Below are positions 6,791 to 8,744 of a stretch of 34,834 bases of DNA, in pieces; the stretch's first letter is position 1; each line of letters starts with the position of its first letter. The translations under genes and the position numbers were made by a program. Source of the stretch: Vicinamibacterales bacterium (GTDB lineage: Bacteria; Acidobacteriota; Vicinamibacteria; Vicinamibacterales; 2-12-FULL-66-21); assembly GCA_035699745.1 (NCBI GenBank), contig DASSPH010000036.1:1-34834 (forward strand), in the 5' to 3' direction. The notes under the pieces are model-generated. The model worked only from the letters and a program-made list of their open reading frames with translations, was not told the DNA's origin and ran no database searches.

Positions 6791-7414
6791 TCACTTCGCG
6801 GCGCGGACGAAGCGGCGCCCTTCGATCCGCCATTCCCGCGCCAGCACCAGCCCCACGGCCTCCGGATAGATCTGGTGTTCGGCGTCGAGGATCCGCGCCG
6901 CGAGCGTCTCCGGCGTGTCGTCGTCTTCGACCGGGACGGCGCGCTGCAGAACGATCGGACCGCCGTCGAGCTCGCCGGTGACGAGGTGCACGGTGGCGCC
7001 GGCGACCTTCGTGCCGTACGTCCACGCCTGGCGCTGCGCGTCGACGCCCGGAAAGGCGGGGAGGAGCGACGGGTGGATGTTGAGGATGGCATCCGGGAAG
7101 GCGTCGAGGAAGGTCGGGCCGAGCAGGCGCATGAACCCGGCGAGGCAGACGAGCGCGACCTGCCGCGCGCGGAGTTCGGCGACGACCGCCTCCTCGAAGG
7201 CGGCGCGCGTCGGGAAATCGCGATGGGGGATGGCGACGGCGGGGATGCCCGCCGTCCGCGCCCGCGCGAGACCGTCGGCGTCGGCGCGGTTGGCGATCAC
7301 GACGGCGATCTCGGCGCGGAGCCGGCCGTCCGCGATCGCGTCGATCAGCGCCTGCAGGTTGCTGCCGCGCCCCGAGATGAGCACGCCGACCCGCCGTCCG
7401 GGGTCAGACGCCAA
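6791..7414 (-). CDS. purN: Phosphoribosylglycinamide formyltransferase (PurN)
   Basis: Transfers a formyl group from 10-formyl-tetrahydrofolate to GAR, the third step of IMP synthesis. VGVLISGRGSNL binds the phosphoribosyl group. Catalytic Asn and His are in LNIHPSLLPAFPG and the Asp is in TGELDGGPI, with the same mutual spacing as E. coli Asn106, His108 and Asp144. I chose the TTG at 7414. It gives 207 residues, close to the E. coli length, and has a GGAGG Shine-Dalgarno site at 7426-7422 with a 7-nt spacer. Upstream in-frame ATGs at 7498-7534 would add up to 40 residues translated from a REP-like palindrome and the antisense of a transposase scar. The start region lies in the loop of a REP-derived inverted repeat. 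It is the last gene of the purine operon, separated from purM by 241 bp. Confidence 0.93.
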   Translation of the reverse strand: MASDPGRRVGVLISGRGSNLQALIDAIADGRLRAEIAVVIANRADADGLARARTAGIPAVAIPHRDFPTRAAFEEAVVAELRARQVALVCLAGFMRLLGPTFLDAFPDAILNIHPSLLPAFPGVDAQRQAWTYGTKVAGATVHLVTGELDGGPIVLQRAVPVEDDDTPETLAARILDAEHQIYPEAVGLVLAREWRIEGRRFVRAAK

Positions 7415-7452
7415 TTCGAGGCCTCCGGCGTGAGGTCGGGGTCTGACCCCGA
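7400..7452. repeat. REP-like palindrome pair over the purN translation start
   Basis: A 17-nt perfect palindrome with 8-bp arms, TCGGGGTC-T-GACCCCGA, lies at 7436-7452. A half copy, GGGGTCAGAC, lies at 7400-7409. The half copy is the exact reverse complement of GTCTGACCCC at 7441-7450, so in purN mRNA a 10-bp stem can enclose a 31-nt loop. That loop holds the GGAGG Shine-Dalgarno site (7426-7422) and the TTG start (7414). Such GTCAGACCCC palindromes resemble REP elements that accompany RAYT genes, and a RAYT remnant begins 45 bp away at 7497. Confidence 0.7.
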
Positions 7453-7496: not shown

Positions 7497-7642
7497 ATGG
7501 CGATCGGCATCATCGCCAGACCGCGGCGGTTCACTCCTGGCGGATGCGTGTATCACGTGTGCAACCGGGGCTCGCGAAGGGCGTGATCCTGGAGACGTCC
7601 GAGGATTATGCCGCGTTCTGCTCGTGACTGGAAGAAGCGGGA
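7497..7642 (+). pseudogene. Remnant of a REP-associated tyrosine transposase (RAYT, Y1 family)
   Basis: Frame 1 from ATG 7497 reads MAIGIIARPRRFTPGG, then CVYHVCNRGSRRA and a stop at 7584. The second part matches the well-known N-terminus of Y1/RAYT transposases (RP-R-hydrophobic-PGG-x-x-YHV-x-NRG). After a frameshift near 7575-7585 the similarity continues as AKGVILETSEDYAAF. It passes an in-frame stop at 7625 and goes on as LEEAG, equal to the family's LFE...DYxAF...LxEA segment. Only about 50 of the usual 200-300 residues remain. The catalytic HUH motif and the Tyr residue are absent. The scar lies antisense between purM and purN. Basis: sequence pattern and memory of the family; no search was run. 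Confidence 0.75.
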
Positions 7643-7655
7643 GGCAAGAGGCCGA

Positions 7656-8681
<1,026 letters not shown>

Positions 8682-8744
8682 ACCCAGCCGTGCGGCGCCG
8701 CTCGGCGGCGCGCCTCTGCCCTCTTCCTGCACTCGCCGTCGCCG

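Follow-up and report, generated by a model that had tools for sequence, protein, structure and literature searches.

A RAYT-associated repeat that appears to form part of the purN translation start in many Vicinamibacterales

In many species of the order Vicinamibacterales, the repeat that flanks a RAYT element appears, from comparison of the loci, to be part of the translation start of the core gene purN. The window studied here, that is, the whole stretch of 34,834 nucleotides analysed from one such bacterium (genome G000), carries a decayed example of this arrangement. We consider it rather probable that a RAYT element has long been lodged upstream of purN, that its purN-side end serves as an in-frame start region, and that the REP is kept after the RAYT has decayed. 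In this proposal, a TIR/REP-flanked tyrosine transposase would have lodged long ago just ahead of purN, on the other strand and mostly in the purM-purN gap, and the inverted repeat of the window would be the purN-side REP doublet of this element. In four genomes of the window's family, the fixed-length spacer of the doublet would hold the ribosome site and the start codon, and the inner REP would provide the first codons; purN of other lineages would take its opening codons from a single REP/TIR. The element would have been largely inherited with its host, with losses and some transfer, and RAYT and REP would have diverged while the REPs spread in each genome. Where the RAYT has decayed (the window) or is missing (G070, G075, G069), the REP could stay because purN now starts there.

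Anatomy of the purN start in the window

An inverted repeat of 10 bp around the ribosome site and the TTG start of purN had been proposed in the preliminary description, and it is indeed present: GTCTGACCCC at 7441-7450 is the exact reverse complement of GGGGTCAGAC at 7400-7409. The pairing is longer by one base (7399/7451), which yields a perfect 11-bp repeat (7399-7409 and 7441-7451). The 17-nt palindrome TCGGGGTCTGACCCCGA is found as reported, and the enclosed GGAGG and TTG are separated by 7 nt. The repeat consists of two 13-nt REPs with a 38-nt period, the ribosome site and TTG start of purN lying in the spacer between them (Table 1). REP2 codes for codons 2-5 of purN (GCG TCT GAC CCC; A-S-D-P), ahead of the conserved core RRVGVLISGRGSNL, and since no ATG, GTG or TTG occurs between REP2 and this core, REP2 must be translated.

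Table 1. Features of the purM-purN region in the window
Feature	Position	Strand	Remarks
purN	6791..7414	-	TIGR00639, E 1.3e-71; putative TTG start
REP2	7400..7412	-	GGCGTCTGACCCC (minus strand); its first base doubles as the third base of the TTG start
REP-doublet spacer, 25 nt	7413..7437	-	GGAGG 7426-7422 and the first two bases of TTG 7414-7412
REP1	7438..7450	.	GGGGTCTGACCCC on plus, GGGGTCAGACCCC on minus (7450-7438); core of the 17-nt palindrome 7436-7452
5' remnant of a decayed RAYT (Y1 transposase)	7512..7650	+	Divergent from purN; end approximate
purM	7656..8732	-	Upstream of purN; TIGR00878, E 5.1e-121

A bare 10-bp repeat would not be striking by itself and was rejected as evidence, as such repeats are near chance in this GC-rich window: there are 19 inverted pairs of 10 bp with a gap of up to 45, against a shuffled mean of 9.7, and 2 of 40 dinucleotide shuffles also reached 19. 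That the repeat at purN is not a product of chance follows from its count in the genome, from the adjoining RAYT remnant, and from the arrangement it has in common with relatives. Throughout the 6.3-Mb genome, GGGGTCAGAC occurs 33 times, compared with 2 occurrences of a reversed control; by hand count, at least 16 of the 33 are accounted for by 8 copies of GGGGTCAGACCCGGGTCTGACCCC, a 24-nt palindrome that is a sister repeat. The remnant sits between purM and REP1 and is matched by the RAYT HMM (E 3e-5); over its segment 7512-7580 it is 82% identical to the intact G008 RAYT (residues 1-23; E 2e-8). The broken start codon and broken frame of the remnant, and the stretch past position 7580, were read by eye. 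The window has no Y1 transposase with the HUH motif and the catalytic tyrosine, only this broken remnant.

The view that the repeat is REP-like and RAYT-associated is borne out by the remnant and by the relatives described below. The accompanying expectation that the palindrome would recur in the genome and lie near RAYT genes agrees in part with the data: the palindrome is not unique and adjoins a RAYT, but this RAYT is dead, and just 2 exact copies of the 13-nt palindrome GGGGTCAGACCCC exist genome-wide. Intact doublets matching the REP-doublet pattern were not found in G000, the window's own doublet being decayed and outside the pattern. The genome has three other Y1 transposases besides the remnant, one of which carries GGGGTCAGAC on both sides (contig C42, at 42652 and 43545 around 42860-43186). 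A REP cluster of three GGGGTCAGACCCGGGTCTGACCCC palindromes in tandem, with a 74-nt period, is present at C13:53158-53329 (L006).

RAYT elements and their repeats at purN loci of relatives

In the 162 genomes of the order, purN was present in 132, at 133 places; the upstream regions of 130 loci were taken, followed by those of the remaining 3. With a profile built from the first RAYTs found, a RAYT or its remnant was detected upstream of purN at 27 of the 133 loci (27/130 and 0/3), the window included. All 27 are divergent to purN and lie 28-173 nt from it. purM was found at 23 of these loci, and the RAYT is located between purM and purN at every one of them. At 20 loci its distance to purM is at most about 165 nt, including 2 where it overlaps the purM match; in G089, G087 and G088, 0.9-1 kb of other sequence separates purM from the RAYT. 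No purM was found in the searched stretch of G004, G010, G094 and G026, nor in longer stretches of G004 and G010. By family (130 loci), the RAYT is present at 11/11 loci of f11, 5/9 of f1 (the window's family), 7/35 of f2, 4/26 of f6, and 0/49 of the others. A long RAYT frame was obtained at 20 of the 27 loci, all of them with RYVE; the HxH motif is present by construction, as it was a condition for picking the frame. The RAYT frames of G007 and G008 score above the PF01797 cut-off, and their best NCBIfam model, NF047646, stays below its own (62 and 60 versus 80 bits).

The arrangement is dispensable, since 106 of the 133 loci lack a RAYT and most of these start cleanly, typically with a short purN start such as V-N-R-R-L-G-V-L. 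A sample of 35 genomes, selected in part because they carry a RAYT, gave 0-6 Y1 matches per genome, and with RAYTs this scarce, so many of them at purN are not an accident. An element general in bacteria was rejected: in the same phylum outside the order, a RAYT was present at none of 40 purN loci (30 with purM upstream), which were drawn from 162 out-of-order genomes with a match. A further set of 80 named loci yielded one RAYT (L067), at a locus whose upstream stretch equals that of G021 and which probably stems from the same genome. Diverged RAYTs in the large purM-purN gaps of f4 and f7 genomes were likewise considered and rejected, the RAYT HMM having found none there; some of the open frames in these gaps look PilZ-like or response-regulator-like. 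At the G015 locus (L207), an open frame (2094-2477) lies between purM and purN (purN forward); it presumably encodes a protein like those of the PIN-domain (VapC-type) kind.

A REP core occurs within 130 nt of the PurN motif at 21 of the 27 RAYT loci and is lacking at 6, a count that is partly by construction, as the REP-core pattern was written from arms already seen; the same pattern gave 3 matches at RAYT-less loci (102 with a usable start). At 19 of the 21 loci no possible start codon lies between the core and the motif, so that the core must be translated there, on the assumption that purN starts at an ATG, GTG or TTG upstream of the VLIS core; in G007 and G088, the core is translated only from an upstream start. 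Inverted repeats at both RAYT ends exceed all 40 shuffles (permutations of two-letter blocks) at 15 of the 27 loci, with one tie (G010) and 11 failures, among them the window. At 12 of these 15, the arm on the purN side reaches into the reading frame of purN; in the exceptions, the paired arm is REP1 (G004, G008) or the best pair is not the REP (G079). At four f11 loci the purM-side arm was not detected. The ends in G111 are near-perfect inverted repeats, one starting at the purM stop and the other coding for the purN start (ATG-ACT-CCC-GAC-CCC; M-T-P-D-P), and in G004 and G010 purN starts with ATG-GGG-TCT-GAC-CCC. The reading phase of the core, judged by eye, is shifted in G048, G071 and G079 and in G026 and G094.

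In four doublets, the spacer holds a purine-rich, ribosome-site-like stretch together with a start codon. This finding and the translation of the REP at the 19 loci regardless of the start chosen both speak against the idea that the REP pair is neutral debris, with purN starting further upstream and the overlap having no role in initiation. We regard this reading as improbable, although the window's purN frame stays open over the 177 nt that precede the motif and offers both an ATG and a GTG in frame, and although most REPs at the 5' ends of genes of P. putida, C. koseri and S. maltophilia were considered non-coding in the consulted parts of PMC3733652. The comparison of the 133 loci makes it likely, as had been suggested from the window, that the start region of purN derives from a mobile palindrome.

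A REP is also found in the purN start at three RAYT-less loci, those of G070 (KKGYDPF), G075 (MTVPTQKGYGP) and G069 (KKGHGPF), where RAYT-less refers to the purN locus: a single distant Y1 transposase exists elsewhere in G070 and likewise in G075, and G069 has no other. The REP core is translated anyway in G070 and G069, and in G075 only from an upstream start. G076, the sister of G075 in the host tree, has a RAYT, and its purN starts with MTVPEKKGYDP. The window is a fourth scar-like case, with the RAYT decayed and not absent. Four f11 loci (L061, L211, L235, L243) have diverged RAYTs upstream of purN without a REP core in purN; three of these RAYTs are in the RAYT tree, on long branches (that of L235 is too short), and they are possibly domesticated copies.

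The purN REP type differs between lineages. Counts of the matching REP population cover 12 of the 21 genomes with a REP core at purN (all except G026, G094 and seven members of f11). The population is dispersed in 11 of these 12, the window's genome with its 2 sites being the exception. Copies of GGGGWCGGGAGYC number 45 in G007, 42 in G048, 32 in G111, 46 in G126, 18 in G105, 86 in G071 and 106 in G079, and 0-2 in the other nine genomes searched (controls 0-3). GGGGTCWGACCCC has 42 sites in G004, 37 in G010, 32 in G008 and 2 in G000; it also occurs in G012 (36), G111 (31) and G002 (12) and is thus not confined to genomes that have it at purN. For GGGGYACGRCCCC, 53 copies were counted in G076 and 19, 12 and 12 in the scar genomes G070, G075 and G069, respectively.

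Doublets span 49-51 nt in 16/16 cases in G008 (in a search that allowed 35-65 nt), 50-51 nt in 14/16 in G010, and 41 nt in 8/17 in G004 (hand recount). The doublets at purN, with spans of 50, 50 and 41 nt in G008, G010 and G004, respectively, are typical of their genomes, which places the purN start of these three in the spacer of a standard REP doublet. The 38-nt period of the window doublet equals that of G008 and G010, where 37-39 nt is the norm. Spacer sequences of REP doublets are otherwise mostly different. The REPs are near-palindromic, and by their central base most G008 doublets are inverted and most G010 doublets direct. Double-palindrome ends of about 50 nt (AAAAAGACGTCGGGTGTCTTTTT...) were also seen at RAYTs of other loci in f11 (L266, L255).

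The preliminary description had further proposed that two mutually exclusive RNA folds, REP1 alone or REP1 paired with REP2, could set purN translation. A REP1-REP2 hairpin enclosing the ribosome site and the start is predicted at all four doublets (z -3.9 in G000, -3.0 in G004, -3.1 in G010 and -4.8 in G008), and the upstream REP can fold alone (z -2.8); no such hairpin is predicted at either of the two single-REP purN starts examined (G111, z -0.3; G048, z +1.0). In these models, the start-enclosing fold is a property of the doublets and not of the whole arrangement. Moreover, an 84-nt leader of the window gives a z of only -1.6, with 13 of 200 shuffles as good. In G000, the long hairpin is predicted to be much more stable (-27.8 kcal/mol, 51 nt) than the short one (-15.3 kcal/mol, 33 nt), which speaks against a balanced switch. 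The REPs, being palindromic, would pair anyway. Regulation of purN by alternative folds seems quite unlikely to us.

Long residence or repeated insertion

We infer from the RAYT and host phylogenies a history of long RAYT residence, frequent loss and some transfer. The main rival holds that the same element family was inserted repeatedly upstream of purN, where it would have a target, and was often cleanly removed, so that the pattern would reflect target choice and not residence; we see this as possible, though less probable than residence. In a tree of 72 RAYTs, which took in 25 of the 27 purN-locus RAYTs (those of G000 and G042 are too short), these 25 fall together with 11 RAYTs from other loci into one clade (97/91). 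The purN-locus label requires 4 changes on this tree against a shuffled mean of 20.7, with 0 of 500 as low, and RAYT distances correlate with PurN+PurM distances (23 RAYTs; r 0.47, 0/2000; without f11, r 0.29, 21/2000). This strong clustering and partial tracking of the hosts, the RAYT at all 11 f11 loci, and the REP scars of the three f6 genomes, which look like losses, argue against repeated insertion.

Several observations point the other way. RAYT presence requires 13 changes (shuffled mean 22.3) on the PurN+PurM host tree, a tree that comprises 126 of the 130 loci and 24 of the 27 RAYT rows, has 12 rows without PurM, and splits family f1; such a patchy distribution would suit repeated insertion, as would the different reading phases of the core. 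Two RAYTs are out of place in the RAYT tree: the decayed one of G110 lies on the f11 side, whereas that of G111, from the same genus, does not, and that of G007 groups weakly (87/79) with that of G048 of f6. G125 and G026 carry purN-clade RAYTs at other sites (L257, L282), and the purM-purN junction of G125 is clean; the ends of the L257 and L282 RAYTs gave no inverted repeat scoring above 9. In G126, the codon at the old start position is ATT, where its sister G107, without a RAYT there, has GTG (by eye). The clean junction of G125 looks as if the whole RAYT had moved, or had been lost and regained; RAYTs are described as unable to mobilize themselves in the portions of PMC3116915 drawn on here. 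Taken together, we favour long residence, and we suggest that the cell probably uses the start codons provided by the element.

Relation to known RAYT, REP and TIR systems

The element is a TIRtron/REPtron. With the TIRtrons and TIRYT genes, in the sections of PMC3733652 consulted, it shares an HUH tyrosine transposase, inverted-repeat flanks, and repeats dispersed singly or as dimers. Some TIRYT genes are associated there with GGGGWSAS repeats, and one group is described from Acidobacteria; GGGGTCAG of the window's type fits the GGGGWSAS motif, and the GGGGTCGG and GGGGACGG types do not. In contrast to TIRtrons and TIRYT genes as these sections describe them, the purN element appears to have a conserved chromosomal home and a role in the start of a core gene.

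RAYTs have been reported to be flanked by inverted REPs, to be single-copy, and to be long vertically inherited (consulted portions of PMC2817692, PMC3116915 and PMC8049555). The purN element resembles these RAYT-REPIN systems in its low-copy RAYT with inverted REP flanks, in REP doublets whose spacing looks fixed within genomes, in having its own REP type per RAYT, and in a RAYT phylogeny that is largely congruent with that of the species. The GTAG tag of the REP superfamily was found in none of the 15 RAYT end arms above shuffles; one of these arms (L218) has CTAC, which is not next to its REP core. None of the open-access literature matches listed describes purN as a home of RAYTs or a REP that serves as the start of a core gene.

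What spares RAYT-REPIN systems from extinction was asked by Bertels and Rainey, who suggested an addiction system or a cell role (PMC3116915, parts consulted). Start-codon capture might help the element to persist: with its end serving a core gene as ribosome site, start codon and first codons, its flank would become costly to delete. The element would gain a stable home from which REPINs are seeded, and binding of the RAYT to the REP at purN could couple transposase dose to purine synthesis. We offer this idea as a doubtful one; if true, it would be one concrete answer to the question of persistence, and it becomes testable with the decayed and missing transposases at purN as natural controls.

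As in the Rickettsia palindromic elements and intragenic REPs, a palindrome is translated within a protein, sometimes at its amino end; intragenic REPs are described in the parts of PMC3733652 consulted, where those at amino ends are often thought to be non-coding. Unlike these elements and intragenic REPs, as far as these parts describe them, the purN repeat is the end of a transposase element, is tied to one gene, and overlaps the start region. What sets the element apart from the RAYT-REPIN systems, in the portions of their literature cited above, is that purN incorporates the REP that flanks the RAYT itself, and does so in many species within a single order. A mobile palindrome would thereby have been recruited by a core gene both as coding and as initiation sequence, which goes beyond mere nearness.
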